A DNA stretch of 42,745 bases. It comes from Irineochytrium annulatum. Its lineage: Eukaryota > Chytridiomycota > Chytridiomycetes > Chytridiales > Chytridiaceae. The stretch lies in NCBI GenBank assembly GCA_027600665.1, contig JADGJL010000104.1, positions 1 to 42,745 of the forward strand. The letters run 5' to 3'. The translations under genes and the position numbers were made by a program. Position 1 is the first letter of the stretch; every line of letters begins with the position of its first letter. The notes under the pieces were generated by a model. It was given only the letters and a program-made list of their open reading frames with translations. It ran no database searches and had not been told where the DNA came from. Positions 1,756-42,695 of the stretch are shown one piece after another.

Positions 1756-4700
1756 TCAAACGAAGCCTGACTCCGATAGCAACCGCGCAATCTTCTCGTC
1801 CTCCCTAATAGCAAAATAGGAAAATAAAGAAGAAAAGAAGGAAGAAATAAAAGTCAGGACCGAGCTTTCGAAGGCGAAGGAAGAGGAAACGAAAAAGCAC
1901 TCACCGCTCCCTCGGCTCAAGCGACAGCGACAAATTGTACAATGCCGTCTCATCCGCCGTCTCCATAAAGCTCTGCTTCAAGAACTGCTGCAACTCCGGC
2001 ACGTTTGCGAGCTGATACGGCGCGTTCTGGTACTGCTGAATATCCCTGATAACCTCGGCCGTCTTTGTCCTCTTCGAGAAGTTGATCATCCCATCATCGG
2101 CGCCCTTCAGGCAGTTCGGGCTGCCGTCCTCGATGAAGGTTAAGTCCGTCAGGTAGAAACCGAGGAAGGGCACGCATGGCGGGTTTACGTTGTGAAGCGT
2201 TTCGCGGTAACGCGAGAAGTTCTTGGCCGTGTTCATAAGCATCCGCAAGGCCTCAAGCATTGTCTGCGAGCGCGCGGGGAGGAGGTCCCATGTCCGCTTC
2301 AGGCGGTGGATTGGGGCGGAGTTCAGGCCAGCGAGGACAGCCATGAGGGTATTGAAGTTATTAATGGAGCGGCATTTCTGTATAATTGCGTTAGTAGTGC
2401 CGAGTATATCAATTTAAGCCACACTTACGTCGGCAATGCTGATGAAGTGCTTCGTGAGTACAGCCCTCTTCTTAATATCCTTCTCCGAAAGGATACTTTG
2501 CGCTACCCATCCGGACACTTGGTTCGACATGTTGATCATCGACTTGACATTGACAGCCGAGTGCGGCGCGTCTTTGTCACTCCACGCCTTCAACAGAAAC
2601 TCCGCGGGCTGGATCTTATTGTACTCCTTGCTCTCGAGGATGGTCAACTGCCTAGCGACCTCGAGCGGGTCCAAGTCCAGGAACCTGATCCTCCTCAAGT
2701 TGCTAGGCAGCTTCGGCGGCGGCACATCCCTCCCCGCACTCTGGATCATGACCCTGATGGGACCCTCGTTCTGCTCCCTCCGCTCGCAAAGCTTCACGAG
2801 CTGGTTCGCAAATGAACCGGCGTCCTGCATCGTTGTAGCCGCGAACCGCTTCACCTGCGCCAGGACCTCCCGGTCCTCCGAGTCTTCGGAGCAGTAGTTC
2901 TCAACCCACGACTTCATCACGTTGAAAACCCGCAGACGGATAGGCATCCGCTTCTGCTTCTCCCAGTCCGCAAACTCGGCCTCAGTTAAGCTCTCTGGGG
3001 GCTCGATTAAGAAACGCCTTTCAAGAAGCTCCATGAAACGGGCTGTGGTCGTGAAGGACCGGTACGTGAGGAGGAAGGTCTGGACGTAAGTGACATCGGG
3101 GGAATCGTGGAGGGTTAGGCGCTCGACAAGGGCTTCGATCCGGCCTCCCTTAACCTTGCCTTCCATGTTGAGAACGATGTCGTCAGGGTTGTAGTCGTAC
3201 TTCAAATACCACTTCTTGTCCGGTTGTGACATTAACGGCTACAGGAAATCGTCGTCAGCCACGTCTGCTTTTACCGTAGAGATGCCCAATACTCACGCTG
3301 TCGGTCGACCCCTTCCTTGGCGATGTCGTCGGTGCTTCCGCACCCAAAAGCTGGTGGATCTTCCCCATCTTACCCTTGGAGTTCGGCCCCCTCCCAAGCG
3401 AGTCCATAAAGTCCATGTCGCTCGGCCCGCCGGGCGGCAATTGCTGACCCTGCCTCGACACAGGCGCCGACATCGGGCCGTTGCCGACGAACATTGGCGC
3501 CCCGGGCGGCGGGCCCGAGGGCGGGTACTGTTGCGCCATACCCTGCTGGTGAGGCATGCCGGGATAGCCCTGTTGCTGCATCGGTTGGCCGTTCATCATG
3601 GCCGGGCTAGAGGTGTAGGTGCCGATGGTGGGCGGTGCGCCGTTCAAGATGCCGCCAGACGGGTCGACGGGGTCGGATGGGGAAGACGACTCTTGGAAGT
3701 CGCCCAAGTTCGGGCCGAGGATCGAGAGCGAGAGTGGCCTCCGCCGGATAACGGGCTCCGAGGGCCGCCGGGCGTGTGCAGCGGCGGCGGCCGACGCCGG
3801 GCCGTTGGCAGAGCCCTGCCCGGACCCGCCGCCGTACTGGTCAATGTACTGCTGGAGCGTCTGCTGCTCGAGCGCCTCCTTCTCCTCAATCAGGAACTTT
3901 GTCGAGATGAGAAGCTCCTTCACGGCCTTCTCAACGAGACCCGTTGCGGCGACGACCTGCTCAAGGGCGTTCGAGGGCGCGAGCGTCCCCGTTGCGGTGG
4001 AAGTGGCCATCACGAGGCCGGAGATGGAGTTGTAAAGCGAGAGCCGGTTGACCTTGAAGTCGACCGTGAGGTCCTCGCTGAGGGAATCAAGGGGCAGATC
4101 ATCCACGACGGAGAGGAAATTTCCAACCTCCGTCACCATCGACCTCACGTCCGTAATCAGGACCGACGAGTTGAACTGATCCCCACCGATGGCCCGGACC
4201 AGCTCCCGGATCATACCGACAACGTTCGAAGTGAACCGCTCGAGCTGCGCAATAATTTCCGAGTTGGTCGGCTGCGGTCCCTCCTCGTCGTACTCGTCCT
4301 CCTCCCCGCCTGCTGAGGAATTCGGTCCCGTCAATGAGCCCGCGTTCAAGTTCGACATGGTAGGCGACGCCGGGTAGCCACCCTGCCCCGACCCCGGCGC
4401 GCCCGGCCTGCCCGTCGATGTGGTCGGCGACCCCGAAGTTCCCTCCCCAGCCTCATCGACCCGAATCTCCACACCGGCCTCCTGCGCCGCGTTGACGAAG
4501 CTCTTCACGGCCTGGAGGACCTCGGAAGCAGCGGCCTGCATCTTCGAGATGGCGTCCGGCGGCGGCCACACCCCCGAGGCGCACTTTGCCGACAAAACGA
4601 GCCTCGACAGCGTAGCCATAATGCTCCGGTGATGTACCCTGAGCGTGCGGTGTGCTTCGACAAGCGGCGCGTCCCGCCGCGCCGTCCCGGAAGCGAAAAG

Positions 4701-6204
4701 CATCACCCGGATCGTCTCGACAATAGCAGAAGATTGCGGGATAAACTTTTCCTTGAAGTTGTTCTTCGCCGAGAAGTTAAGCTGTTGGACCGCGCCGACA
4801 ATGTCGTTTGTCAGGCGCGCCCATGTCACCCGGCCCGCGCCGTCGTCCTCGACCATCGATGGTCTTCGGAGGGAGTCCGTCGATGAGTTCGAATGCGCAG
4901 AGGTGCTTTCCCGCTTTTTTGTAAGCTGCGAAAGTGATCATCAGTCAAACCATTACCCAAATGGCAACGCCCATCTTACCAATTCTCCCGTCTCCAGATC
5001 GATATCGGACAGCAACCATGTCGTTTCATCGGTGAGCATGTTGTAGTAGTATGCCCGGCCTTCGGGTGTGGACTTTTTGCCCCAATTTGGCGGGAGCTAT
5101 AGTACCATTTTTCAGTAACTGCGTCATGCAAGTAAGCATCACTCACCCCTTCATTCGCCGCCTGGCGGGTAGATACAAGAGCCGTCGTGCGAATGAGGAG
5201 CCCGTTAGAGCTCACTGGCGCGATAAGAGAATTGGGTGCGGTCGTGGGTGAGGTAAGGTTATCAGCGGAGAGGCTCGACGCCGAATTCAGAGAACCAATC
5301 GAGGCCGAGGTCGTGGTCGTGCCCTCTGGCGGTGTCCACCGAGTCTCCTTCGTGAAGCCGTTATAGTAAACCATGGATCCGTCCTCGGCTTCGAAGACGA
5401 TCCAACCTGGCGGCAGGTTCAAGCTCGTGTAGCCGGAATCCCGCTGCGGCTGTCCGGATGCACCGCCGGGGGTCGCTAACGGGTTGGAGGTCTCGGAGAG
5501 GCGGGGTGAGCTAGCGAAGCTGTCGTTCGAGGAGCGGCCAGCGGCCTCGACGGCCTGCTCGCCGGTATACTGATTTACATAAATGATTCTGCCATCTGCT
5601 GTCACCTGGCGAAGCCATGGTCCCGCCTTGTACGTAAATTAGTCCAATGATCGTCTAAACGATAAAATGAGGAGGAATCGCACCTCGGCTGATGCTGGAG
5701 GTGTCTCGACGATAGCCTCCTCAGGCTCGCTGACATAATTTGACGGAAACCTGGAAGAAATATCGATCAAGTACGTGGTTAGTATCGGATGCATGTTTAG
5801 GGAGTTCACCAAGGGTAGACCAATAGCAGGAGACGCGCTTCGCACGACCAACCGCCCTCCACTGACCGCGGTCGCCCCGACCATTCGCCGCGGCCGTCCG
5901 GAAACCCCGGCCGCAGGATCTGCCGCCCTCCGGATGTTGCTCTGCTGGGCTCTTCCCCCTCACCGCCCATTATCCCAAAACTTGCCGGGAACCATCCTCC
6001 CTTCCCGGCCGCGCCACTTTAGTCAACACCTCGCCAACACTGGGCCAGAACCCACCATCCTCGATCGTCATTGCACGATCCGTCCCACCAGCCAGACTCG
6101 AGCTGGTTGTGGACGTGGATCACATCCCCGCGCTTGAACGAGAGACCCGAGTCATCCGGCCTCGTGTAATCGTACAGCGCCGTAACGTATACGATCCGGG
6201 ACAT
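1756..6204 (-). CDS. CDC25: Cdc25-type Ras guanine nucleotide exchange factor, SH3-WW-WW-WW-REM-RasGEF
   Basis: Eight exons on the minus strand: 6204-6056, 5750-5684, 5626-5147, 5096-4980, 4925-3297, 3238-2429, 2377-1905, 1804-1756; 1257 residues, all phases consistent. Residues about 4-58 are an SH3 domain (ALYDYTRPDDSGLSF ... DRGWFPSNYV). Three WW-type elements follow: about 73-100 (GPWLRQVTADGRIIYVNQYT, degenerate), 143-174 (LPPGWIV ... TRWTPPEG) and 233-264 (LPPNWGK ... DETTWLLS). A long helical and low-complexity region (about 272-810, Q/P/G-rich near its end) precedes the REM domain (VKGGRIEALVERLT) and the RasGEF catalytic domain (CRSINNFNTLMAVLAGLNS, NPPCVPFLGFYLTDLTFI). The product should load GTP onto Ras upstream of adenylate cyclase or MAPK pathways. 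The intron splitting the SH3 domain is unusually long, 305 nt (5751-6055). Confidence 0.93.
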
Positions 6205-7822: not shown

Positions 7823-10800
7823 TCAATAATCCTCCATCACCAGCCTTAGGCCCGTCGCGACGCCGACGAACCTCTCAAAGAAGCCCTCATGCACGCCCCT
7901 CGGCGTGGCCCTCGACACGCTCAGCCACGTCACGCACCTCCCCTCCCGGACATCCAGATCCACCTCGAGCCTCGCGGCCGTCGAGTGGAACTTCTTCTCT
8001 ATCCTCAGTTCCCGATCCCGGACCACGCCGAGCGGCTGCTCGTTGACGCGCACGATCACCTCGATCGTGTCGCGCCAAGCGATGTACTCGGACGTCGCGC
8101 CGTCGTTCCGCTCCACCGTGCGGGAGCCGTAGGCGGCAGCGGCGGAGTCGGGCGTCAGGGCCGAGGCGGAGGGCGGAAGGCGGACGGTCTCGTAGGTGAA
8201 GTAAACGCCGTTGCCGGACTTGCCTGGGCTGGTCGCGACGCCGTGAGCCATGTAGCCGACGACCTCCTCGCCCGTGTCCGGGTCAACCTGACGCAGCGGC
8301 GCCAGGCCGGTAGATCGCTCGCCGTCCCTCGCGCGCCGGTCGTCCTCATGGCGGAGCGACAACGACGACAGGTAGCTGATGATGACAGCCCCGACTGTCC
8401 TCTGCAGCGCCGCCGGGTCCCTCGGATCAAACCTCGCGACAAGGTGCTTCTGATCATGCGCAACGCTCAGGTTGAACCTCGGCATCCTCCACTTCTTCGT
8501 GACCGCATGCCGATCAATGACCTTGTGTGGCTTCCGCGTCCTGACGTCGTACCTCGGCATGTGTACCGTGCAGGAGTCGACGTCCTCGATTGTCAGCGGC
8601 GCGAGCACGGGCATGAGCTCGAGCGCTTGCGTGCCCTGCTCATATAACATCCGCAGGTCCCGCATCATAGCGCGGAGCGAGAGCGCGTCGAAGACGGCGT
8701 GGTTCACAAAAACGTACGCTACCGTCGCGTTGACCGCAGTCACGGCCGTGATCATCGTCTTCTCTCCCGCGAGGGCCTTGTGCGCCGCGACACGGACGGC
8801 AGCGAGGTCCTGCATGACGGCGAGGGGCACGATGACGGTGCGAGGGTGGGGCGTCTGGGAAAGCGGGAGGATGACGGCGCGCGTGGGGTCCTTAGCGGCG
8901 CGGCGTTTGCCATGGGGCATAAGGCGGGCCGAGAGGATGCGGTGGACAGCATGAAGGTCCTTCATAGCGCGGGTGAGACGCGGGGCGTCGATAACGGGGT
9001 GCTGGCTAGTGGACGGGTCGAAGTCGCCGCGGAGGGCATAGGGGTATAGGGACCATTGGACAGAGTTGCGGATAATGTTGGCAATAGGTGTCGGCGCGAC
9101 TTGGTACCTGGATGCAGAATTTCAGCAGACAATCCCAAATCAAGGTACGAGGTTACACTACTTACAGCCAAGTCTGCGAAAACACATGGAACCCCGGCCC
9201 GATCTCGACGACCTCCTTCCCGTCCGCCGTCATCTCAACCTTAACCTCCTGACGGCCGTCTTTTCGCATCGTGACGGCCTTCTCATCTATCCACCTCGCT
9301 ACCTCCGACGGCCTCGCGGTCTCGCCCAAGAACAATACAGCTGGCACGTCAGCTCCGAATTTCTCCCGAAGCCTCGCGGCCAAGATCACGCTATGGATGC
9401 TATTCAGGCCCGCCGAGAGGAAGGTAAAGTCACGGCCAGAGAAGTCCGGACACCCGATGACGGACGAAGCAACGGTCGAGATCTCGTGAGCCCGTCCGTT
9501 CGGCGGGAGGATGTCGAGGCTCGGGTCGGTCGACGTCAGATCTTCCGGCTTATAGAGGAGCAGCGAGTCGGGATTCACGAGCGTGTTGGAGGGGACGACC
9601 TTCTCGCCGTTGAGGATCTTCTTGACGGCTATCTCGACCTTTTTGCCGGTGTGGGTATACTGGTGAGGAGAAGAACATCAGTACTTCAAGCAATCCAAGA
9701 GCAATAATTCAATAACTTACCGGAATGTCATCAATCGGCAGAATGAACGCGGGAGCATGCCTGACCGACAGCTCCTCGCAGATCTTCGCCCTGACGCTCG
9801 CCGCCAGCTCCCTTGAAAACTCCCTCCCCTCCGCCATCCTTAAGTACAGGACCACCCTCTCATCATTCCTCCACCGCTGCCCGACCGCCAAGCTATCCCT
9901 AACCTCCTCAAACTGCGTCACGACGTTGTATAGCTCGCTGCTCCCGAACCTCACACCGGCCGGCTTTAACGTCCCGTCGCTCCGTCCCAACATCACAAGC
10001 CCACCAGTCCGCGGGTTGATGCTTACATAGTCGCCGTGGAACCAAACGCCCTCGAACCGCTCGAAATACGCCGCGCGGTACAGGCTCCGCCTGTCATCGT
10101 CACCCCAGAAGAACACCGGCATGACCGGGAATGGTTTCGTGCACACCAAGTCGCCGGGAGCGTCGCCATCGACCCTGTTGCCCGACTCGTCCCAGGCCTC
10201 CACGGCCATGCCCAGGCACCGGCACATGATCTCCCCGTCCTGGGCCGGCTCGCCGTCGGACCGATGGCCCGCGAAGAGCGACAGGATGTCGGTCCCGCCC
10301 GTGATGGACCCGATCAGGACGTCGGGCTTGATCGCGCTCCTCACGTACTCGAACTGCTCCACGGCCAGCGGGCTCCCCGTGGAGTACACGTGCCGCAGCG
10401 TGGTCAGCGAGTGGGTCGATCTCGGGGACAGGTGCAGGTCCTGGATGCTCTGCAGGTACTTGGCCGACGTCCCGAGACACGTGATGCCGAGCTCGTCGAC
10501 GAGGTCGAAGATGTGGCTGGCCTTGGGCTTGAATGGGGACCCGTTGTAAAGGACGAGCGTGAGGCCGACTGACAGCCCCGAGACGAGCCACTGCCACATC
10601 ATCCACGAGGTGGTCGTGTAGTAGAAGAGGACGTCATCGCGGACGAGGCCGCCGTGGATCATGTGCTCCTTTTTGTGCTGAAGGAGCGCGCCGCCTGCCG
10701 AGTGGACGATGCATTTCGGCTTGCCGGTGGTGCCGGAGGAGTAGAGAATGAAGAGCGGGTGGTCAAAGGGGAGCTGCTCGAAGTGCAGCGGCTGGGACGG

Positions 10801-12088
10801 GTCGGCCCGGTCTACAAAGCTCGTCCACGTCTCGACGTTCGCGATGCCGTCGAGGGTGAACACGTGCGAGTCGACGAACGGTAGGACGACGGTTGCAAGC
10901 AACGTGTCGGCCAGCCGGTCCGCGACCGCCCTGACGCGGCCCATATTGTCAACGATGGCGCCATCGTTGATCGTAGCCGCGACAGAGAAGAGGAGCTTCG
11001 GCCGGATCTGACCGAACCGATCGACAACGGCGTTGGGGCCCAGATCGGGCGAGGAGGAGGACCAGATGGCGCCGATGGACGCGGCGGCGAGCATGAGTGC
11101 GACGGCCTCAGAGCAATTGGGGAGGTAGGCGGCGATAGTGTCGCCAGCTTTAATGCCCATGGAGCGGAAGGAGGAGGCCAGTATGCGCACCTGGCTGTAG
11201 AGCTGGTTGTAGGTGAACTCGCGGTCGAAGCCGTTCTCGTTTGCGGTAACGATGGCGACGCGGTCGTCACGGTAACACCTTTTTGTATAATAGCGTTAAT
11301 TTCACGCGTTGTGAGGAAAGGAAAAGTCAGCGCACTTACAGCAAGTTCTCTGCAAAGTTCAACCTCGCGCCCAAGAACCACTTGGGCACGTCCTCCATCC
11401 TCTTGCCCTTCTCCAGCACCTCCCTCCACGGCTCGCTGCTCACGATGCCAGTGTACGTCCACACGGCGGACCAGAATGCCTCCAGCTCCGTGATGCTCCA
11501 CTCGTACAGGTCGTCATACCCCCGCAGCTGCAGCGACGGATGCATCGCGTTGACGAGCGCAATGAAGGCCGCGATGCCGTTCAACCCGGTGACGGCCACG
11601 GGGCGACGCGTGGGTCGACGCTTGGCTAACGGGGACGCGGGCCGTGCGTTGATGAACTCGAGTGTGGATGGGGTCGGGGACGCGGTCTTGAGCCTCTCCG
11701 GGCCCGAGTAGGACTCGCGGAGCGTGTGGGCGCTGAGGGTGGTCGAGGAGCGGGAGGAGATCGAGGCGGGCTTCGCGGCAAGGCGAGCAGGAGTGACAAT
11801 CCAGCTTGGCGCCTGGCTCGAGGAGGCGCTGAGGCCGTCGACGGAAGAGGTGGACGAGGTGCGCGACTGCATGGAGGAGAATGACGACGACGTCCGGAGC
11901 GTGTGAGTGGCGGCCGCCGAGCGCTGACGGGACTTGAAAAAGGACAGCTGGAGGGACTTCATGGTGCCGGGCGTCGGCCGTTGTGAGGCCGCCGAGTTCA
12001 CCGAAGCGGTTGAGTCAGCATACAGCGAGTCGTTCCACGCTCCCGCCGCCCTCCTTGAGGCGGCGTCGGCATCCGGGAAGAGAACCAT
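7823..12088 (-). CDS. Acetoacetyl-CoA synthetase / carrier domain / condensation-like domain fusion
   Basis: Four exons on the minus strand: 12088-11340, 11278-9721, 9659-9166, 9107-7823; introns of 61, 61 and 58 nt; 1361 residues. Residues 1-about 140 are Ser/Thr/Ala-rich and probably disordered. Residues about 140-845 are a complete acetoacetyl-CoA synthetase-type adenylation enzyme: N-terminal signature YEWSITELEAFW (195-206), ARLNFAENLL (241-250), P-loop YSSGTTGK (429-436), and the C-terminal IPYTHTGKKVE with expected catalytic Lys775. AACS enzymes normally end soon after this. Here follows a carrier-type domain, about 820-895, with FLSAGLNSIHS and candidate phosphopantetheine Ser856, then a condensation-superfamily domain (about 935-1361) with RLTRAMKDLHAVHRIL and VNHAVFDALS (His1070, Asp1074). 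Inferred role: activate a short acyl group, load it on the carrier and transfer it to an acceptor. The substrate is unknown. Confidence 0.88.
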
Positions 12089-13108: not shown

Positions 13109-15178
13109 CTAATGGTTGATGTCGTCCCTGAGAAGAAAGTCGTAATTAGCATAGTTGGAGCCGAAAAAAAAAAAAAAAGGGGAGAAGAGGACATAAAAAC
13201 ACAAATAACTCACCAAGTTCTGCCCTTCACGTTGGCAAGGTCCATCGAGGACACGACCGCGGGCGACTTGCCGCTGAAGTAGCCCGACGCGATCTTAGCA
13301 TCGATTTCAACCTGCGAGTCCGGTGGCAGGCGCCCATCGGGGATGGCTATCCTCTCGAGGATCGGGATGCCGGATCCGACAATGGCATCGTATTTCTGCG
13401 AGGACAAGTGCGTCAGAGAGGGTTTGAAGCCACAAATACCAAAAGAACCCTCACCATGTTACTCATCGAAATCATCTTGTCGATCTTCTGCACCCCCAGC
13501 CAGTGGAGCACGTCCGGCATCGTCGCCTGAAACCTCATATCCTTGACGCCGGCCACGTTCTCGGTACGGAGGAAGTAGTTCTCGGCCGTGTCGCCGCCCT
13601 CGGCCCGCTTCCTGGCGTTGTAGACCAGGTACTTGGTGACCTCGCCGAGCGCCCTCCCCTCCTTCCTGAAGTAAACGATCAGGCCGGCGCCGCCCTCCTG
13701 CGCCGTGCGGACGCACTCCTCGATACCGTAAATAAGGTAGGGCCGGCACGTGCAGATGTCGGAGCCGAAGACGTCGGAACCTGTTCGCTCGAGTTTAGTC
13801 CATAGCATCAAGAAAAAACAAGACGCATTAATACCGTTGCACTCGTCGTGAACACGGACGGTAAGAACCTTCGACGGGTCGGAAATATAGTCCGGGTTAC
13901 CGAAGATGTAGATCGAAAGGCCACCAATCGGGGGAAGGAACACCTTCAAATCCGGTCCTAGCAAAACAGCGGGTCAACAATCTTAGTTACGTAAAAGAAC
14001 ATCCTAGAGGATACATACGGGTGATAAGCTCAGGGTACATGCCGCCGGTGTCCTCGAAAAGGGCGCGACGCAGGGTGGTCTCGTCAACGCCGAAACGCTG
14101 GGCAATCCCCGGAAGGTACCAAACGGGCTCAACAGCGCCCTTCGTTACCATCAGGTCCCCAGCTTCGTTGACAACGACCTTCCCATCCACCTTGATTCTC
14201 CCGCTCCTGACCTCGGTCTCGATCTCGATCAGCTTCATGTGCGCCTTAGTGATGGCGATGGTCGGTCGGATGTCAATCGTCTCATTGATGTACTTGCTGT
14301 ACACGTCGGCTACAGCGTGTCCCCAAGGGTCCATCGATACGATCTTCGTCGGGTCGCCCCAGGCCGGGTGCGGCCCGATCTTGACGACGGGTTCCGTATT
14401 ACGGAGGTTCGGCCTGTGTCCCGGCTCGAGCTGACGAATCGCGATAGCCAGGGCGCGGTAGACCGAGTAGGAGCCACCGTGGGCACCGATGGCGTTCCGG
14501 ACCTTGATAGAGGACTTGGCACGCGAGGCCACGATGGGTCCGCGGAGGGCAGGGTCATGGTGGCCCCAGACGAGTGGGATGGGGCTGACGCCGACCTGGC
14601 CCGGGTAGGTCGTGAGGACGATGCGGTGGTTGTAGAGAGGCTGGACGAGGCTGCTTGAAAGCGAGCGGGACTGCGACAGAGAGAGGTTCGAGTGGCTGCC
14701 GTACGAGTGCGGGGCCGGGCTCTTGGCGCGGGAAGAGACCGACTCGACATCCGAGTCGGACTCCTCGTGACCATTCTCGTTAACCTTCGCATCTGTCGAG
14801 AAGAAAAAAACCAGCGAGCAGAATGATCAGAAACTCGCGCATAGAGCAATCAAGCAGAGACGCTCACCACTCGCGTAAATTCTGTAAGAGCTCTTCTTCT
14901 TCGGGCGAGGAGGGCCGTCGGGTGGCAACATCCCAGCATCCGTGGCCGAGCTCAGGAGCATGCGCTCCTGGGAAGCGGCCAACCCGCTGATGGCCTCCTT
15001 GTTCTGTTGCTGGTAGGTCTCGACCTGCATGCAAGAGCTGGGTAAGCATTACTCCGCACCGGACCTGCATGCACTGCCGGGCAACTCTCTTCCAAACCTT
15101 GGTCAGGATCGCCTGCTGATCGGACTTGAGAGACTGGACGGCGGCCAGGATCGCGTTCAACTTGGCGGCGTCCTCCAT
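13109..15178 (-). CDS. URC1: URC1, GTP cyclohydrolase II-like enzyme of uracil catabolism
   Basis: Seven exons on the minus strand: 15178-15098, 15024-14868, 14792-14019, 13957-13835, 13780-13455, 13395-13214, 13127-13109; 553 residues. The last intron's donor overlaps an in-frame TGA, so the protein ends ...WDDINH rather than ...RTW. Residues 1-about 134 are an extension with a coiled-coil-like start and a Ser-rich linker. The GTP_CH_N domain follows (IVLTTYPGQVGVSPIPLVWG from about 137), then the GTP cyclohydrolase II core. The zinc cysteines are kept: RVHDEC (Cys377) and SDICTC (Cys388, Cys390), then YFRKEGRALGEV in place of the riboflavin-enzyme motif. In Lachancea kluyveri URC1 is needed for uracil catabolism rather than riboflavin synthesis. 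It is head to head with uracil phosphoribosyltransferase, which acts first in that route, and this supports the URC1 call over RIB1. Confidence 0.9.
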
Positions 15179-16796: not shown

Positions 16797-18556
16797 ATGT
16801 CGCCATCTCTCTTGCAACGAGCACTTTTCACACCATTCCAACACACCCGAGGGATGGCCGTGAGCGTTATCTCATCCAAGGTGAGCCAATCGTCGCCGCT
16901 CTGATCGTCGTCGCTGATCCTTCCTCGACTCGCTATCTGCAAAGGCCGCCAAAGTGAGTTTGCTGCATGACAGGTTGCGCTCCCTTCGCTGACGTAGTCC
17001 TGACAGCGCCTGGACTCCCTTGACAAGGCCGGCACTGTCTTCTCGGAGTTCACGGGCCTCGCCATCAAGCACAATGCCGTGAACCTCGGCCAGGTGGGCG
17101 TGTGGTCGCCAGTTCTCTTCAAGGACCCTTTTGCTGACTCCCTGACAGGGCTTCCCGACGCTCCCGGTCCCCGAGTTCATCCGTGGCGCGGCTTCGAAGG
17201 CCATTGCGAATGTTAACCCGCTGCATCAGTACACGCGTTCGGAGGGTCACCCGAGGCTCGTAAAAGGTTAGCTTACTTTCACGGGTGAAGGTGTTACGCT
17301 GACATGTAAACGTCACTTCGCTCTGCTTAGCGCTCTCGAAGTTCTATGCGGACAAGCTTGGCAAGGAGGTTAACCCGATGACGGAGATTATCACGACCGT
17401 CGGGGCCACAGAGGCGTGAGTATTCGTGCAAGTCCCGGAAAGACGCATGCCCTGCTAACCGTTCAACAGAATCTACAGCACCATTCAAGCCTTTGTGAAC
17501 CCGGGCGACGAAGTAATCCTCATGCAACCCTTCTACGACTCGTACCCTGCCTCCGTGACACTCGCCGGCGGCACTCCCGTGATTGTGACTCTGGCGCCCG
17601 GTGAGGTGTCGGCCACATCGGACGACTGGCGGCTGGATCTGGCCGAGCTCCGGCGCGCGGTGAAGCCCGGCAAGACGAAGATGATTTTCGTCAACAACCC
17701 GCACAACCCCGTGGGTAAGGTGTGGAGGAGGGAGGAGCTGGAGGGGATTGCGAATATTGCGAGGGAGTTTGATTTGATCGTTGTCGCGGATGAGGTTTAT
17801 GAGACGCTAGTGTACACTGATTCGCCGACGCCTATGATCAAGTTCGGTGAGCAGCGCCTTTTCTGTTTGACCACCCCCAAGCAGAGTTCTGATTCCTTTT
17901 TGAACAGCGAGTTTGCCGGGGATGTATGAGAGGACTATCACGCTGGGCTCGATTGGGAAGATGTTTGGCGTTACGGGGTGGAAGATTGGGTGGTGCATCG
18001 CCCCGCCGGAAATCACGCGCTCTATCTGGATGGTTCACCAGTTCCTGCCATTCTCGGTAGTTACACCCCTTCAGGTAACAAATGTGTTTTTTTTTTACTT
18101 TTTCTTTGCTTGACTATCGCCTTGAACACGAATATTCATGTGGTTATCTAGGAAGCGGCCGCCCAGGCCCTCGAAGAGGCCATGGCGTCCGATTACTTCG
18201 AGCAGACGCGCAACACGTACGAGTCCCTCCGGAACAACCTCCACGCGCTCCTATTAAAGAACGGCCTCCGCCCGACGATGCCGCACGGCGGCTACTTCGT
18301 CATGGCCGACACGACGTCGCTGGAGCCGCTCCTCCCTGCCATCGCTGCGGGATCGGACGTTAGGAGGGACTTTAGGGTCTGCCGGTTCCTCACAACTGAG
18401 GTCGGCGTCACGCCCATCCCCCCGTCGGCGTTCTACGAACGGAAACCGGGGGCCGGTGGGGACGTGCCCGGACGGTTCGCGCGTTTCGCGTTTTGCAAGG
18501 CTCAGGACCTGTTGGACAACGCGTCGGACCGGTTTGCTGCTTACTTCAAGAAGTAA
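16797..18556 (+). CDS. BNA3: Class-I PLP aminotransferase, kynurenine aminotransferase-like
   Basis: Eight exons: 16797-16880, 16945-16953, 17007-17093, 17149-17266, 17331-17415, 17470-17846, 17908-18074, 18152-18556; 443 residues. Fold-type-I landmarks in order: HNAVNLGQGFPTLPVPEF, the cofactor-anchoring GATEAIYSTIQAF, substrate segment NNPHNPVGKVWRREEL, DEVYETLVY, and the PLP lysine motif SIGKMFGVTGWKIGW (Lys271), with a C-terminal RFAFCK. This is the kynurenine/glutamine transaminase branch (Bna3, CCBL), which turns kynurenine into kynurenate and uses several amino and oxo acids. The N-terminus MSPSLLQRALFTPFQHTRG is Arg/hydroxyl-rich and acid-free, like a mitochondrial presequence, with a second possible start at MAVSVISSK. 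A 9-nt exon (GCCGCCAAA) lies between two good introns of 64 and 53 nt; skipping it keeps the frame. Any link to uracil catabolism is only by position. Confidence 0.9.
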
Positions 18557-18725: not shown

Positions 18726-20112
18726 CTACCGCTTCTCCCGCTTGTCGGTCCGGTACGGCGAACCCCGGCCACCATGGCCGCTGTCGCGGTCCCGATCCCG
18801 AACCCCGCCGTCCTTGTCTCTCCGACTGTATTCCCTATCCCTGTCCCTACTCGGTGCCCCCCTGTCATCCCTCAACGGTCCTCCATTGCCATTCCGGCCC
18901 CTGTCCGCTTCGTGATAACGGTCGTTGCGCAATTTATCCCGCCCGCTGTTCCGATCCCTCCCACGATCACCACCGCCGCTGTCACGACTCCCACCATCCC
19001 GGTCTCGCTCGCGACTTGACCCGCGTCGACCGTCTGGTCGGTCGCTCTGGCTCCTGGCGTGCGGCTTTGCGCGCTCCGTGCTACCGTTACTGCCGCCGTT
19101 CGAAATATCGGGTCGCGCGCTACCAGCCCGTGGACGGTTACCTTTGCCGCCGCGCAGCGTTGCCAGGGTTGGATCGGCGCCTAGCCCGAGAAGATGAGGG
19201 CGGTTTTTCAACACAACTGGTGCGAGTGCTCTGAAAACGACCGAAACCTCAACGACCAGCCTCGAATACAACAATCGACGATGTAAATACCCAGACTGAT
19301 TCCTCCCGACAGTCCTCCCCTCCTCCCATCCCATTCCACGCAGGATGGCCGCACCAAAGTCGTCAATCGGCGTGTCCTCGTAATCCTCCAACGTAGACTC
19401 CGCGGGTCGGAGAGACACGTCCTTGTGGTACTTCTCAATAGGGTCCAAAATGTCCGCGAGCTCAGGCAGAGCGCCTTGCTGGAGCAAAGGGAGTATCTGC
19501 ACTTGCGGCGCAGTGGTTGGCTCCGACGTGCCTGTGAAATGAAGCACATGAGTGTTTGAGAACTGAACGAAGCGGAGCGGCACGACATACCATCAAGCAA
19601 GGCTGCTATTGCCTCCTCTTCCACGCTCCTATGCGGTGCATCCGGCCTGGCGCTCCCTGCTGACGGCCCCTGCTCCACAACAACGGTCCGCTTTTGCACC
19701 TGCAACCCCCACTGCGTCCGCTCCTCACCGTCCTTGTCGACGTTCGTCACAAACTTCAGGTCCTGCTTTACGGGCATTTGCGTCTTGGCGACCCCATTCT
19801 GGCGTAGTGGGATCACAAGCGGTTTCTTCTTGGCACCGGATCTTAATATCGCAAGGAGGACCCAAAAAATAACGGATAGAAGATGACAGGACGCCGTAAG
19901 CCTTTTGCGCGCCAAAGATTCCGCGGTCAGCGAAGAACATGTAACACGTACTCGGTGGAGAACTCGACGATCTCGGTTATTTGAAACTCCTCGTCCTCGG
20001 CGTCAGAATCGTCTCCATCTGCGAAGAAGCTTCAGGTGAGAAGATGAGTCGATTGCTCGCGGAGGACGCCGCGGGAGGGTGTCGCTCACGTACCGTTGAA
20101 TAGCTTTGACAT
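18726..20112 (-). CDS. SPP2: SPP2-type G-patch pre-mRNA splicing factor
   Basis: Five exons on the minus strand: 20112-20094, 20018-19952, 19841-19591, 19531-19297, 19230-18726; 358 residues. It begins MSKLF, then an acidic stretch, KKPLVIPLRQNG (the conserved Spp2/GPKOW lead-in), YEDTPIDDFGAAILRGMGW (G-patch core), GRTVGRNQALAPVVLKNRPH and LLGLGADP, and ends in a long R/D/S/G-rich tail. Spp2 and GPKOW activate the DEAH helicase Prp2 before the first splicing step; the G-patch is the contact. No KOW domains are seen, so this is closer to the fungal form than to human GPKOW, although the RD/RS-like tail resembles metazoan splicing factors. The 66-nt intron at 19231-19296 inside the G-patch region is a multiple of three with no stop. 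It is convergent with the aminotransferase gene, 169 bp between stops. Confidence 0.88.
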
Positions 20113-21376: not shown

Positions 21377-24041
21377 ATGGAGGATCCCCAGCCTGCCGTC
21401 GCGGAGGCCCCGACGGCCGACGACGCGTCGACAACTCCGGACGCGTCTTTCAAAGCGGAATCTGCCCTCCAGCCTGGCGCGTCCACGACTGCACCGAGCT
21501 CTGTCCGGCCCTCTGTCTCCACCAGGAACCCCTTTAACCGGCTCTCTCGCGAAGTCGTCCATTCAAACTACAGTCTCAACAACGCCGGGGTCAATGAGGC
21601 CGACAGGTCCACCGGCAACCTGACCACCTCGACCCAGGCCACGGGCACCGCCAGGCCGAGCGCTGTCGCGCGCGCGCCAACGATCCCGCGCTCGACCTCG
21701 GCCCACTCGATCGCGACCAGCATCGTCGGTGATCTGAACGGGCATCACCTCGTCGGCTCGACCACTAACCTCTCCATCGCGGGCTCCTCCGTCGCGGACA
21801 CGACGCCCGCGGCAAGCCGGCCAATATCGACGGTTACGACCGGTGGGGGAGGCGCGAACGCGCGCGCGTCCGTCGCGTCGTCAGTCGACGCCGGGTCGGG
21901 GACGGGTGGTGGCCGGACCCCGGCTGGGATGGGCGCGACTACGACGATGACGGGGAGGGCGCGGAGGAGGCGGTTGAGCATGGAAAGCAGTCCGTTCAGG
22001 TCGATCCTGGCCAGTCCGATGAAGGAAAACGCGGAGGCACCGCCACCGCCGGTAGAAGCGTCAAAGAAGAGACGGAAGGGGAAGAGGAAGGGCATGGTAG
22101 ATGAGAGGAGGCTGATTATGTTCGAGGACGTGATTCATAGGCTGCGGGAGCCCGGGACGGGGATTGAGCTTAAAGATAGGAACCGGCTATTCAAATCGTA
22201 TCCTCAGACCTTCTTGGGTAAGATTATCTTTAATTGCCATCGGGCTTTCCTAGATTTGCTTTCCGTGTTTTCTGCATAAAACGTCGTGATATTTAATATC
22301 TTTCTTCGTGGCAGGCTCCGAGCTTGTAGATTGGCTCTCCCACAACTGTAATCTTCTCGGCAAGGACGAAGGGTTGAAGCTCGCCGCTGACCTGTTTGAC
22401 GCTGGATACGTCATCTCCATCGACCTCAACGACCGCTTTACACCCGACAACGCCATCTATGTCTTCCAGACGTCATACCTCTGGACGAAGGCCGGCTACC
22501 AGATTGCGGACATGGATTACTTAACATACCTTCTTCGGCGGTCTCAGAAGACGACGCCTAAGTTTCTTTTGAGCGACCGGGAGGAGTATGACATGGCCGT
22601 GCTCAAGAAAGCGCACAGGAAGCAGAAGGAAACCATTCGTGATAAAGTGAAGGAGCAGATTGAGTACGTCTTCCACTGCATTTGGGCACTCTGTTGGTTT
22701 GACTTCACCTGGGCGGAATTTAATACTCGACTGACAGTTTTTTCGAGGCCCTGAGCAAGAACGAGCGGCGGCTGCTAAATGTTCAGGAATTCACGTTCTG
22801 GAAAATGCAGCGGCCCGGGGCCTTGCCAGAGCACCTTCAGTTGGCCGTCGACTCGGACGTCTCGAAGAAATGCTTCACCGCCGAGGAGATGGAGGCGAAA
22901 CTAACAGATACGGAGCTGATAGGATACATGGAAAAGAAGCTGGATGTCCTTGAGTCGTTGATGACGCTCAACCGCGTCAAGGTGTCGACAGCCTCAAGAA
23001 AGTGAGTGATGTCGGAACTGTTTCTTCACTCTTTTACAACCTCCTAACAACGTTACCAAGCCTTGTCCATCGGTGCGATATCCTAAGGGCCTTTGATCCT
23101 TGTTTGGAACCCTCTTTAAACGCCCAAAACCCGTTCATAACCGACAACGAGAAGATGTGGGACGCCGTGAGGTAAGTAAAACCGGGCTTGCCTTCATAAA
23201 TTCACCTTAAACTCTCAATTAATTTCATAACAGAAAACAACCAATAAAGCGAGACCTGATGCTTTGGTGCACGTCCCTCGACGACCTCCTCCGCGACCCT
23301 CTCGGCATCGAGTACTTTGCTCGCTTTCTCAAGACAGAGTTCTCGCTAGAAAATCTAGACTTCTACCAGCGGTGCCAGCTCTTGGCCTCGCTGCCCACAT
23401 ACAGCGAGTTCCAGCGCGAGGCCACGGCCATCTTTGAGGAGTTCATCCAGGTTGGCTCTCCGCGAGAGCTCAACATCACCTCTGGATGCCGCATGGTCCT
23501 GATCGCGCAGTTCACCGCCGTCGGTCTCAACAAACTCGGCAACACGCCGATGATGGTGAAGGCCTCGTCGCCGAACCTCGCGACCGTTTCGACGACAGGC
23601 GCGGGGTCGGACGAGCCCGCGCCGATGCCGGGCACGACGCCGACAACGACGACGGTCACTTCGCCGGTGCTTCGAGCACCCCCCGCAACAAGCCCCGGGG
23701 CGGCGAGTCCTGCTGTCACGAGCCCCTCATCAGTCGCGACTAACGACACGGGCACGACGGGTGGCTCCAAGCCGAGCCAAAGCAGCGCGAATGGTGGGGC
23801 CACCAACACGATGAGGCGTATTGAGCAAGTGAGCTCGCTGACGAGGTTGCCGTACGATATCTTCTGGGAGGCCCAGGAGCACATCGCTCACCTAATGGGG
23901 AAGGACTCGTACCAGAGGTTCTTGAACTCGAAGCCGATCCAGGAGATGCTGGTGGCGGCTGGCATCCCGCTGGAGTACGCGAAGGTTGGGAACTCGTCGA
24001 AGAAGAATTTGGCCAGCTCGCACATGGCGCTCAATCCTTAA
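21377..24041 (+). CDS. R7-type regulator of G-protein signalling: DEP-DHEX-GGL-RGS
   Basis: Five exons: 21377-22217, 22315-22663, 22738-23001, 23061-23171, 23234-24041; 790 residues. The start was placed at 21377 (cgccATGg); the frame is open further up, but that stretch looks like leader. Residues 1-about 235 are Ser/Thr/Ala/Pro-rich. DEP (about 245-325) shows FLGSELVDWLSHNCNLLGKD; the DHEX-like helical part (about 340-440) shows FEALSKNERRLLNVQEFTFW. The GGL (G-gamma-like) segment (about 460-520) has MEKKLDVLESLMTLNRVKVS, LVHRCDILRAFDPCL and NPF. The RGS domain (about 530-770) shows FLKTEFSLENLDFYQRCQLL and LMGKDSYQRFLNSKPIQEML, interrupted by a ~105-residue low-complexity insert. R7 RGS proteins pair through GGL with G-beta-5 and speed GTP hydrolysis by G-alpha. 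Fungal Sst2/FlbA proteins have DEP and RGS but no GGL. Confidence 0.9.
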
Positions 24042-24952: not shown

Positions 24953-25936
24953 ATGTCTGCCAAGTGCCCGGCCATCCTGGCCCCGACGGAGAATGATATC
25001 CAGTTGATGCTGGCCGCCCAGGTGTGTACACGACCTTCATCCTGGACGAGCGACGGGGATGACATGGAAGATCGCGCGTACTGACACGGCCTGCTCATTT
25101 TCCTCCGATCAGGTCCACATGGGCACCAAGAACCTGGACATCGCCATGCACAACTATGTCTGGAAGCGCCGCAACGACGGCATCAACATCATCAACATTG
25201 GCAAGACGTGGGAGAAGATCGTGTTCGCGGCCCGCATCATCGCCGCGATCGAGAACCCCGCCGACGTTTGCGTGATCTCGGCCCGCCCTTACGGGCAGCG
25301 CGCGGCCCTCAAGTTTGCCCAGTACACTGGCGCCCAGGCCATCGCTGGTCGCTTCACGCCGGGTACCTTCACGAACTATATCACGAGGTCGTTCCGTGAG
25401 CCCAGGCTCATTATCGTTACTGACCCCAGGACGGACCACCAGCCCGTCAAGGAGGCCTCGTACGTTAACATCCCCGTGATCGCCTTCTGCGACACGGACT
25501 CACCGCTGAAGTTTATCGATGTCGCTATCCCGGCCAACAATAAGGGAAAGCACGCCATTGGTCTCGGGTACTGGCTCCTGGCCCGTGAGGTTCTCCGCCT
25601 TAGGGGTACCATCGCCAGGACCTCGCCCTGGGCCGTTATGACGGACATGTTCTTCTACCGTGACCCCGATGAAGCTGAGAAGGACGCTGAGGCCGCCGTC
25701 GCCGAGAAGGCCCCCGACGCATGGGGCGGCGAGGAGGCTGCCCCTGCCACTGGCGATGTAAGTTTTTTGGATTTTGTTTTAGAAGGCGAGGTTAACTTGG
25801 CTAACTCGTATTTTAGTGGGACATGGGTGCTGTTCCCGCCGCTGGCGCTACCGGCGAGGTTGCTGAGTGGGGTGCTGAGACCGGCGAGTGGGGTGCTGAG
25901 CCGACGACTGCCGTCCCGAGCAGCGGTTGGGATTAA
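24953..25936 (+). CDS. RPS0: 40S ribosomal protein uS2 (RPS0/RPSA)
   Basis: Three exons: 24953-25021, 25113-25757, 25817-25936; 277 residues. Landmarks: [59 protein letters not shown] and [20 protein letters not shown]. The acidic C-terminal tail has repeated Trp-Gly-Ala units ([13 protein letters not shown]) and ends SSGWD, like eukaryotic RPSA. It is a structural part of the small subunit and is needed for late 40S maturation. Codon choice is strongly biased to C/G-ending codons, as expected for a highly expressed gene. The first intron lies straight after the helix 1 LAAQ. Confidence 0.96.
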
Positions 25937-26188
25937 GATTTTGCTTAGATGCAGTCAGTCTTAATAAAAGGGCTTAATTTGGTCAAAAGCAAGCAAGAGG
26001 AAGCTAAAAGTTGGATCTGATAGTGATGGGTGTAAAGGCTTTGTCGAATGAACATGCATACTACACATGGGAGAAACGTATCACCACCTTGGCGGCCGTT
26101 TCCATCGCTGAAATTTTTTTTTAATGCAAGGACGCAGCGTTCCATGTATGCACAATGGTGTAAGTGTATCGCCACTCCATTCCGCTCT

Positions 26189-38616: not shown

Positions 38617-40074
38617 ATGGCTGCCAACCCAAGTCTTGCACCCTGTGAATACAAGGTGAGCGGCGATCAGCATGCGGCTTTCCCTCTGATCCCTGTGGAC
38701 GTCAGACTGGCAAGACCCTGGGACAGGGAAGCTATGCCACCGTCAAAGAGGCCATCCAGGTTGGTTTGTGTCTGGCGGAGGCGTATTTGACCCTTCGTCA
38801 GATCAGGTCCGGCGAGCGGTTTGCGGTTAAGGTCATTAGCAAGCGACTCATGCAGGGTCGGGAGCACATGGTCTGGCAGTACAGCTGGAAATTTGTCCTT
38901 ACTTTCCCACAGATTTTAAATGAGATTGAGATCCTGAAGAAGGTCTCGAAGGGGCACAAAAACATCGTCACGCTTCACGATTGTATGATGATTTTGTCTT
39001 CAAAGTGCTTATTAATCGTCGTGTCGCAGATTTCGAGACCCCAAACAATCTTTATCTGGTTATGGACCGTAAGGAGCGGAGACACGGCCGGCTTAACGTT
39101 TCCAGTTTGCACAGGCGGTGAACTTTTCGACCGGATCTGCGAGAAGGGGTCTTTCTACGAGGAGGATGCTGCCGAGATCGTCAGGACGGTCGTCGACGCG
39201 GTGGCCTACCTGCACGATCTGGACATCGTCCACCGTGATATCAAGGTTGGACGAAGGGTGCGAGGCTTTTGGGTTGTTAACGGAGTTGTAGCCGGAGAAT
39301 CTTCTTTTCAGGACGAAGGACTCTTTGAGCGAATTGGTTATCGCGGACTTCGGCTTGTCGAAAATCATGGACCCGGAGACATATGACGGCCTAATGACTA
39401 CTTGCGGAACACCGGGATACATGGCCCCAGGTTTGATCCGACTGTTTATGGAATACAATATCAAAGGCGATGCAGAGGTGATTAAGAAGACTGGTCACGG
39501 TCGCGCCGTTGACATGTGGTCGATCGGAGTTCTGTCTTACTTCCTCCTTTGTGGTTATACGCCCTTCGACTCGTCCAGTTCGGCGGACGAGCTGCAGCGG
39601 ATTTTGACAGGCTCTTACACCTTTGAGCCAGCGGAATATTGGCAAGAAGTCTCAGACACCGGTATTTCTTGTTCTTAACTCCGTTTTTCCATACTGAGGT
39701 GATGTTTAGCCAAAGACTTCATTCGCAGTTTGCTTCTCGTCGATTCGACAAACCGACTTACGGCTCGCCAAGCCTTGGCACACCCGTGGCTTGCTCAACT
39801 TGATCCGATGCCGACCGAAGATGGCCAGGAACAGCCGACGCGTGTTCGGACTGTGGACTTGCTACCTAACGTCAAGGCCCGGTTTGACGCGAAACGGATG
39901 TTCAAGAAGGCGATCGGGGTCGTGAAGGCAATAAACAAGTTGGCGGGTGGTGGAGAGGGGAAGTCCCACGAGAGCCTACACACAACCTCCGCGCCAATGA
40001 GCGTGGACGAAACGTTTAGGCCAAAGGAGGATGAAGTAGCGGACGATGGGCACTTGATGGTTCTTTCAAAGTAG
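38617..40074 (+). CDS. CMK1: Calcium/calmodulin-dependent protein kinase I-like
   Basis: Nine exons: 38617-38655, 38706-38759, 38802-38870, 38913-38982, 39030-39068, 39106-39245, 39292-39430, 39476-39661, 39710-40074; 366 residues. Gly loop [12 protein letters not shown], catalytic Lys41 ([10 protein letters not shown]), [30 protein letters not shown] (Asp135), DFG (156-158), activation loop [13 protein letters not shown] with a Thr where CaMKK phosphorylates, and [20 protein letters not shown]. The C-terminal part [20 protein letters not shown] is a basic amphipathic helix as expected for the autoinhibitory/calmodulin-binding segment. It is a Ser/Thr kinase answering Ca2+ signals. The PENLLF motif is recovered only if the exon 6/7 junction is placed at 39245/39292. 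Confidence 0.95.
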
Positions 40075-40206: not shown

Positions 40207-42695
40207 TCATGCCCTGCTATAAAAAGAATTCGAATAAACCTTGCACAAAGAATCCGCCCCGCCGCTAGCGATAAAATCTTGTCGAGTCGGATGATACTTT
40301 ACGCTCCAAATACCCTCGTCATACTTTTTCCGGTGTGTGCTATACTCCTGAGTGCACAACCGCGTGCCTAAGTCCCACCACCTAATTGAGCAGTCGTGCC
40401 CCCCCGACACTAATGCTAGCCCGCTCGGCGAGAAGTCAACGCTGGAAACGGAGTCTAAGTGACCCAGCATCGCATGCGTGCAGCGGCCTTTAACATAAAT
40501 ATCTTTAATAAACCCTGTACAGTGCGCACCAACCTGAATTGATATCATAAAAACGAATATGTCGGTCCTCTGACGCCGACACAAGCATCGGCATGGTCGG
40601 ATGAGTCACAACCATATTCAATTGCGAAGAGCCTAAATGTCAGTACTTGTAGACATCAATTGGTCTACCTTCGCTTTCTTTTGCTTCAAGGTCCAATCGC
40701 ACCACCTCATCGCCGGTCTCGACGTCGAAAATGCGGATGCAGCCATCACGATGGCCCACAATCAGCCTCCTCCCGTTGGTATTTAACCACTCCAGCGACG
40801 TCGGAATTGACAATCTATCCCCTGTCGTAAGAGATAACCTCAACCCATAGCTTTCGTCAGTGACATCCCATATTTTGACTGTTCCATCAGCTGACGCCGA
40901 CGACATGACCGGGTAGTGTTGCAGAAGGGGATTCAGCTTGACATCCCAAACGGCGTCCGTGTGACCAACAAAGACATGGGTTCTTGACGTCGTATCTACT
41001 TCGGGTTATATCACATAAAAACACGCCGTGCACTCTAACCATATTGTGCATAGGTCTCGGCTTCCAAAGACGGTATTTTCCAAGCTGTGACCGTTGCGTC
41101 CAAACTTCCCGTTAGTAGCCGCTGAGAATCAGCGGATACAGAGAGCGACGTTATCGGGCCCTTGTGGCCCCTGAACGTGAACGATGGCTCCAGGTCGGAA
41201 AGTGACTTTCGAGAGTGAAGGTTTCGCAAATTCCAAAGCTTTGCTGTGCCGTCCTCCGAAGCTGACAGCAAGGCCAACTCTTTTGGTAAGAAGCTAATTG
41301 CTCTAACGGAGTCTAAATGGCTGCTTGGGTCAGTAACCCCCTAAAACAATCTCTCTTCACCTTCGTAATGTCACCCTTGGCCGCCAGAGATTGGGTTCGT
41401 CAGCAGTCCCATCGCCGTGCATGTTCTAGACTTCGTTAAGCAATAAAGCGACATATTTCAACTTACCATCTTATCGTCCACATCCGTTTCATCATCTTCG
41501 CAATATGCTCTCCCGACGTCATGGGGGAAGCTGGCAGTATCGCTTTCAGCTGCAAGGGTGAGTAGAATGTGCTCACATCTCTGCATACCACGTCTAGCCG
41601 ACTGGCTGTCATCCCGATCGTCATCGTCCGCAGCAACCGCTTTCGCGCTCTCTGCTCTCATCTTATTTGCCGTTAGTAACCAAGGCACATAGGTAGCACA
41701 CCTCTTCTTCGTCATCGAGGACAGTTGCACTAGGGTATATCGTCAACACTCGCCAACTAAAATTAGTATACGTACTCGACATCATCAACGTCCTCAACCT
41801 CCGTCGTCATGACAGCATCAGACATATGACGCGACCCGCCCGGTTTAGTCGGTGCGGAACGCGTTGTAGCATTCTTCATCATCGTCTTTTGAAACGCTGA
41901 AGGTTTGCCAGCGGAGTGACGCGTCGACTCGGCGTTCTCCCCGTCGCTTAAGATCTCGTCTGAACCAGGGCTGTGCATCCGTTGATTTGATGTAGCGGAA
42001 CTCAATGGAGCAACAAGACCGGCGTGTGATAGGAGGTAGTTTGCTTCTCGCAAGTAGCTAGTGTGCTTCAGTACGCATCGAATTCCAGCGCCACGCACTT
42101 CTTCAGGATCTCTCGACTTCGCAAATTTCCGACACCCTTCGAATATCCCAAAAGGGTTCCACCCGGAGCTCCGCCAGCACCGTTGTTGTAGTGCCCTGGT
42201 GTATCGTTTGCAAAAGTTGACTCGACCTGCTGCTGCACAGATCCCGGAACGTCCGACTCGGGGAAATTCGGACCGTTGTTCTCGTTCGGCTGCCCGTCCG
42301 AGGCCTGCTGCTGCCTCGACAGATACTTCCCGCTGTAATGCACTAAGTTCCACGTCTAAGCTAAAAATGACGGACCGTTCCTGCCGCAACGCGTACTCTA
42401 GCATCTTCACCCGTCGCAACAGGTCCGTCTTGATGTTCTCCATCCCACGCCTTTCGCCCTCAAGAAACGAGAGCTTCGCCTGCGAGATCAAGGCATGTCA
42501 GGCGAGATTCCAAGATCCTATCTCGACCTTCAAATCAGCTCTCTCAATCTCCCACTCGTTCCGCTCCCGCTCAAATCTTCTCCATTCTCCTTGGAGAAAA
42601 TGAAGGACGCCTAAGAAACAAATCAACACTACATCTTGAAATTCGTCCTAACCCGGAAGCGAATACATCGGTGGATGCGGTGCTCTTCGTGGACG
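40207..42695 (-). CDS. STRN: Striatin, STRIPAK scaffold (N-terminus beyond the right edge)
   Basis: Thirteen visible exons on the minus strand: 42695-42653, 42610-42528, 42479-42376, 42332-42099, 42057-41776, 41729-41702, 41661-41589, 41549-41467, 41425-41361, 41320-41040, 40998-40669, 40632-40534, 40487-40207; 661 codons before the stop. The first visible exon is preceded by an acceptor (gttag) with an in-frame stop just upstream, so the start lies outside. N-terminal striatin block: MYSLPGVLHFLQGEWRRFER, then the coiled coil SFLEGERRG ... LLRRVKMLEYALRQER; then SREILKNYLREANYLL, a Ser/Asp-rich linker, LWRPRVTLRSHLDSVRAI and a C-terminal WD40 propeller (GHKGPITSLSVSADSQRLLT, GHTDAVWDVKLNPLL, GHLDSVSSVDFSPSGLALVS). 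Striatin (Pro11/Far8 in fungi) is the regulatory PP2A B''' subunit that holds together the STRIPAK complex. All introns are 36-48 nt. Confidence 0.93.

Follow-up and report, generated by a model that had tools for sequence, protein, structure and literature searches.

An acetoacetyl-CoA synthetase joined to a carrier and a remote condensation-type domain in the chytrid Irineochytrium annulatum

A gene on contig JADGJL010000104.1 of the chytrid Irineochytrium annulatum raises the question of whether an acetoacetyl-CoA synthetase (AACS) can serve as the loading domain of an assembly-line enzyme. The gene lies in a stretch of 42,745 nucleotides (hereafter, the window) and encodes a protein in which a whole AACS is followed by a phosphopantetheine carrier and then by a domain resembling the condensation domains of nonribosomal peptide synthetases (NRPSs). 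The architecture is real and unusual, with an AACS in the place where an amino-acid or aryl-acid adenylation domain would be expected. We put at about one half the probability that a duplicated AACS has been turned into the loading (adenylation, A) domain of a compact NRPS-like enzyme of the order adenylation, thiolation, condensation (A-T-C).

The AACS and carrier domains of the fused gene

The initial annotation had read the gene as four exons with intact phases, and this was borne out: 1361 residues were translated with zero internal stops. The motifs it had named were likewise recovered at their positions, i.e., YSSGTTGK, TGKKVE (Lys775), FLSAGLNSIHS (Ser856), and NHAVFDALS (His1070 and Asp1074). 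The AACS domain matched NCBIfam TIGR01217 at 756.8 bits (cut-off 520.9) over positions 19–645 of the 652 of the model, and the solved S. lividans-type AACS structure 4wd1 at 425 bits. Lys617 of the latter, the counterpart of Lys775, is described as the acetylated residue of the S. lividans enzyme (PMC8007912). Pfam searches of the fused protein returned ACAS_N (46.4 bits) and AMP-binding (147.1 bits), with AMP-binding_C at 13.0 bits, under its cut-off of 24.5. The profile for amino-acid adenylation that serves as the canonical NRPS criterion (TIGR01733) stayed at 73.8 bits against a cut-off of 317.4. The TIGR01217 match begins at residue 172 and the alignment to a free-standing AACS copy at residue 165, downstream of a low-complexity N-terminal extension (Table 1).

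This second AACS of the Irineochytrium genome has 663 residues in four exons and is encoded on contig 854. The fused and free-standing copies are 60% identical across 636 positions, and they formed a sister pair (support 1.0) in a tree of 39 sequences, 37 of them bacterial, with near-equal branch lengths of 0.42 for the fused AACS and 0.38 for the free-standing one. Conservation was compared at 144 near-invariant columns, defined by at least 95% of one residue among 40 bacterial rows, three being duplicates. Departures numbered 31 in the fused copy and 29 in the free-standing one, with about 23 common to both. Given the similar column departures and similar branch lengths, the fused AACS is not decaying faster than its paralogue, and it appears to have arisen by duplication without sign of decay. 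Because it keeps the conserved positions about as well as the free-standing copy does, the fused domain looks active, as far as can be predicted, and its family membership makes acetoacetyl-adenylate formation likely.

A carrier had been expected after residue 820, and PF00550 places one there at 26.0 bits in the protein, above the curated cut-off of 20.8, and at 31.8 bits in a six-frame search of the genome, with Ser856 where it had been claimed to be. The top PDB sequence match of the carrier was the peptidyl carrier protein (PCP) of TomA (8qpy, E 0.0018). Lys775 and Ser856 are 81 residues apart, AACS tail included, a distance that would suit an A-T pair. The end of the AACS and the carrier share one open frame within exon 3, so the join between them needs no splicing. 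Six matches to the phosphopantetheinyl-transferase family PF01648 were above cut-off in the genome. That the AACS may load the carrier is plausible because the active site is kept, a free-standing AACS is present, the spacing suits such a transfer, and candidate phosphopantetheinyl transferases are encoded.

Assignment of the last domain

The step from the carrier to the last domain hangs on one predicted intron, the third. The frame of exon 3 itself closes at 9162, at the donor of this intron, and the first ATG in the frame of exon 4 occurs only at residue 982, within the aligned condensation-like domain. With codon usage trained on exons 1 and 2, the proposed frame of exon 4 scored +0.41 bits per codon, compared with -0.50 and -0.88 for the other frames of the same strand and +0.14 for the best reverse frame; the GC content at third codon positions was 0.84 in exon 4 versus 0.86 in exons 1 and 2. 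A contaminant or a pseudogene was also considered as an explanation of the gene, and is countered by the introns, the coding bias and the retained active-site positions.

We aligned the last domain with a condensation profile of 19 sequences (18 from bacterial loci and one from the Irineochytrium genome), drawn from 31 loci of which 12 were excluded as being without a full-length open HHxxxD frame. In HHalign, residues 895–1361 scored 36.3 over 376 columns, with residues 927–1353 on profile positions 17–435 of 462, and in this register His1070 falls on the catalytic His of the profile. None of 200 shuffles reached this score (15.7 ± 2.7, maximum 24.0), and 93 of 94 real decoy frames peaked at 21.5; the one higher decoy, at 74.8, is a Lys2-type gene (L021) that carries a condensation remnant of its own. 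The HxxxD motif taken alone is within chance, as it was present in 1311 of 2000 shuffles of the same residues, and the real domain has three. Wax-ester synthases are members of the condensation/HxxxD acyltransferase superfamily. Against the condensation profile, 29 of them scored 24.4–54.6 (median 34.1), and the last domain sits at their distance from condensation domains, far more distant than the condensation domains of the same genome (five condensation or epimerisation stretches used as positive controls scored 83–260). Against a wax-ester-synthase profile the last domain scored 25.7, within the controls, of which shuffles reached at most 27.5 and decoys at most 27.4. Two further acyltransferase families gave zero matches in searches that recovered no control either, i.e., PF02458 in the Irineochytrium genome and AATase PF07247 in 289 bacterial genomes.

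A number of results weigh against an A-T-C enzyme. The curated profiles all reject the last domain: PF00668 gave 10.4 bits (E 0.26, cut-off 30.6) over residues 1065–1094 only, and 12.1 bits (E 0.08) when the C-terminal fragment alone was the query; a genome-wide PF00668 search at E ≤ 10 had 47 matches and zero in the window, and NCBIfam had no meaningful match for the last exon. The HHxxxDG motif is only partly kept, with the catalytic His and the Asp present, the first His replaced by Asn and the Gly by Ala, and the HHalign probability was only 32%. The expectation that the first condensation motif spans the third intron was not supported: deletion of residues 895–960 left the score undiminished, and the profile fit is therefore uninformative on the splice junction. 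AlphaFold2 without an alignment gave no usable model of exon 4 (predicted local distance difference test, pLDDT, of 32), and the single-sequence model of the carrier had a pLDDT of 49, with three helices of which the second begins just past Ser856. A fold search with that carrier model was weak, its best E of 0.13 being non-significant, with carrier proteins at ranks 1–11 of 43. No paralogue of the last domain was found in its own genome at E ≤ 1, and a PDB sequence search with the C-terminal part returned one chance match only. A contig scan by exact peptide patterns found only two AACS relatives (query residues 96–805 and 184–799); it used few patterns, and its silence on the other domains is weak. 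There were no biosynthetic neighbours in the window, where the Pfam-matched genes among the 20 frames scanned are of housekeeping type.

Since the curated test failed, the assignment is drawn from the profile comparison with its controls, from which we conclude that the last domain is probably a remote condensation-type HxxxD acyltransferase, outside PF00668 by the curated test. Of the A-T-C order put forward in the initial annotation, the AACS and the carrier thus stand by curated profiles, and the last domain is supported as a distant superfamily member, not as a PF00668 domain.

Proposed reaction, related proteins and rival explanations

In the proposed reaction, the AACS domain would first use ATP to convert acetoacetate, or else a closely related acid of the beta-keto or short type, to the acyl-adenylate. 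The acyl group would then pass to the phosphopantetheine arm on Ser856, in place of free CoA or alongside it, and the condensation-type domain, with His1070 as the base, would hand it on from the carrier to an acceptor provided in trans, either an amine or an alcohol. The product would be an N- or O-acetoacetyl compound, and the ordinary supply of acetoacetyl-CoA would be left to the free-standing paralogue. There is precedent for the use of acetoacetyl thioesters by condensation domains: that of TAS1, the tenuazonic acid synthetase with the order C-A-PCP-KS (KS, ketosynthase), is described as coupling isoleucine to acetoacetyl-CoA (PMC4640141). As far as that source describes it, TAS1 is like the proposed enzyme in this donor, and unlike it in taking acetoacetyl-CoA from solution, in activating isoleucine with its A domain, and in its domain order and release (PMC4640141).

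AACS was detected in 85 of 398 and 155 of 399 genomes of two overlapping bacterial samples. We examined 103 of these loci (100 distinct by sequence), comprising 59 from searches and 44 long-frame stretches (three repeats), a set that leaves out AACS matches with shorter frames and unlisted ones of the second sample. The frame ended 377–439 residues past SGTTG in 102 of the 103. The remaining locus (L142) encodes an AACS-type domain (589 bits), then a carrier (42.7 bits) and then a thioesterase (PF00975, 87.5 bits). It resembles the fused gene in having an AACS-type domain over the family cut-off followed by PP-binding, and differs in terminating in a thioesterase rather than a condensation-like domain; the two AACS domains are 36.7% identical. 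The frames around it include those of a family III CoA-transferase, a mechanosensitive channel and a sensor kinase, and no assembly-line cluster was seen within 15 kb. An AACS-type domain fused to a carrier is therefore a rarity among the 103 bacterial loci, yet it is not confined to the window.

Relative to the AACS family (TIGR01217, 4wd1), the fused protein has the whole AACS domain with its P-loop, catalytic lysine and conserved positions, and it differs by the addition of about 165 N-terminal residues, the carrier and the condensation-like domain. NRPS-like enzymes of the A-T-X kind are already known to occur with unusual loading domains. Enzymes of the CrmA type, also NRPS-like, are similar to the fused protein in combining adenylation, thiolation (carrier) and transferase domains in one fungal protein, and dissimilar in that an isocyanide synthase is present and, in the accessible part of the source, an AACS domain is not named (PMC9381783). 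The Lys2-type alpha-aminoadipate reductase L021 of the same genome also has an A domain, a carrier and a distant condensation-like stretch, but its condensation remnant is N-terminal, its reductase is C-terminal and its A domain is not an AACS. The claim that the enzyme lies outside the usual NRPS families accordingly needs narrowing: an AACS as the A domain is unusual, whereas the A-T-X kind is known and L142 is also an AACS-carrier protein. We found no description of an AACS-carrier-condensation protein in open-access papers, as judged by titles and abstracts.

The chief rival explanation is that the AACS makes free acetoacetyl-CoA only, and that the carrier and the last domain are vestigial or regulatory, like the Lys2 condensation remnant. 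The great divergence of the last domain and the lack of a gene cluster fit this, and L021 bears just such a remnant (Condensation 25.2 bits) before its A-T-reductase; we nevertheless consider it unlikely, as the HxxxD is kept in register, the frame is open at full length with coding-type codon use, and the carrier serine is kept. Rather improbable is that the same A-T-C machine is in place and its AACS-type domain now activates another beta-keto acid or a short branched acid. Both AACS copies differ from bacterial AACS at conserved positions, and L142, at its low identity to the fused copy, shows that carrier-bound AACS-type domains drift, but the departures are largely common to the free-standing copy, and the SITGGTD stretch, which we take to be part of the acyl pocket, is identical in both. 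We see a small chance of channeling without A-to-T loading, in which the carrier would take another unit or the last domain would take acetoacetyl-CoA from solution as TAS1 does (PMC4640141); the distance between Lys775 and Ser856 suits a didomain, and the protein has no further A domain. A misjoin of two genes, an AACS-carrier protein ending at the third-intron donor and a separate acyltransferase, is very improbable: retention of that single predicted intron would indeed end the protein right behind the carrier, but its donor and acceptor are canonical, exon 4 has no in-frame ATG ahead of the one noted above, and a separate gene would require a 5' exon elsewhere (no search was made for one).

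Genomic context and significance

NRPS-type parts are abundant in the assembly (26.9 Mb, 1082 contigs), with 36 carrier matches and, when each exon is tallied separately, 47 matches to condensation domains. In a region on another contig (G000:C325:43965-78230), several matches to carriers and to condensation domains, one of the latter scoring 386 bits, lie in intronless frames that are very long and extend to as many as 3050 residues; this region may come from a bacterium or be a contaminant. Within the window, the small ribosomal protein encoded at 25008-25961 matched eukaryotic PDB entries, the top two being from ascomycetes. The features of the fused gene, its relatives and its neighbours are given in Table 1.

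Table 1 Positions of the fused gene, its parts, related genes and neighbouring genes (window coordinates unless a locus is named)
Feature	Position	Strand	Details
Whole fused AACS-carrier-condensation-like gene	7823..12088	minus	4 exons, 1361 codons plus stop; spliced translation without internal stop
Exons of fused gene	12088-11340, 11278-9721, 9659-9166, 9107-7823	minus	
Introns of fused gene	11279-11339 (61 nt), 9660-9720 (61 nt), 9108-9165 (58 nt)	minus	start GTAAG, end AG
Intron 3	9108..9165	minus	GTAAGTA...CAG; links carrier exon to condensation-like exon
N-terminal extension, residues 1-165	11594..12088	minus	Ser/Thr/Ala-rich, low-complexity; upstream of AACS match
AACS adenylate-forming domain, residues 172-806	9549..11575 (incl. 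introns 11279-11339, 9660-9720)	minus	TIGR01217
Catalytic A10 lysine, Lys775	9642..9644	minus	aligns with Lys617 of 4wd1
Phosphopantetheine carrier (PP-binding), residues 829-893	9288..9482	minus	PF00550
Candidate phosphopantetheine serine, Ser856 (FLSAGLNSIHS)	9399..9401	minus	aligns with modified-serine position of 8qpy
Condensation-like domain, residues 927-1353 (~430 residues)	7850..9188 (incl. intron 9108-9165)	minus	HHalign; sub-threshold Pfam
HxxxD motif NHAVFDA, His1070 and Asp1074	8687..8701	minus	aligned to HHxxxDG of condensation profile
Free-standing AACS (G000:C854)	L019:767-2903; exons 767-1995, 2042-2097, 2144-2434, 2488 onward		
L142 AACS-carrier-thioesterase, Pseudomonadota sample	G592:C2:153361-158292; L195:5915-9052	minus (L195)	
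Lys2-type reductase (G000:C192)	L021:547-4311	minus	A, carrier, reductase; N-terminal distant condensation stretch
Ras exchange-factor gene	1904-5638	minus	WW domains, DUF7783, RasGEF_N/RasGEF exons; downstream of fused gene, same strand
GTP cyclohydrolase N-terminal domain	13416-14826	minus	305 bits; then weaker GTP cyclohydrolase II match
Regulator of G-protein signalling	22290-24038	plus	DEP and RGS domains
Exons of aminotransferase, small-subunit ribosomal protein SA/S2, protein kinase, G-patch, striatin-type, Utp13	17459-18553, 25008-25961, 38649-39383, 396-773; 18729-19592, 41766-42497	plus (first four); minus (last two)	

The usual source of acetoacetyl units in natural-product enzymes is a polyketide synthase or, as in TAS1, free acetoacetyl-CoA. 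A possibility that we advance tentatively, with somewhat less than even confidence, is that AACS was recruited, probably more than once, as a direct carrier-loading domain, giving a class of small acetoacetyl-transfer enzymes that need neither a polyketide synthase nor free acetoacetyl-CoA; repeated recruitment is suggested because the partner is of the condensation type here and a thioesterase in the bacterium. The bacterial AACS-carrier-thioesterase protein offers an unrelated, second setting in which to test the idea. If true, it would directly link ketone-body metabolism to assembly-line chemistry, and would give enzyme engineers a convenient loading part and genome searches a marker.

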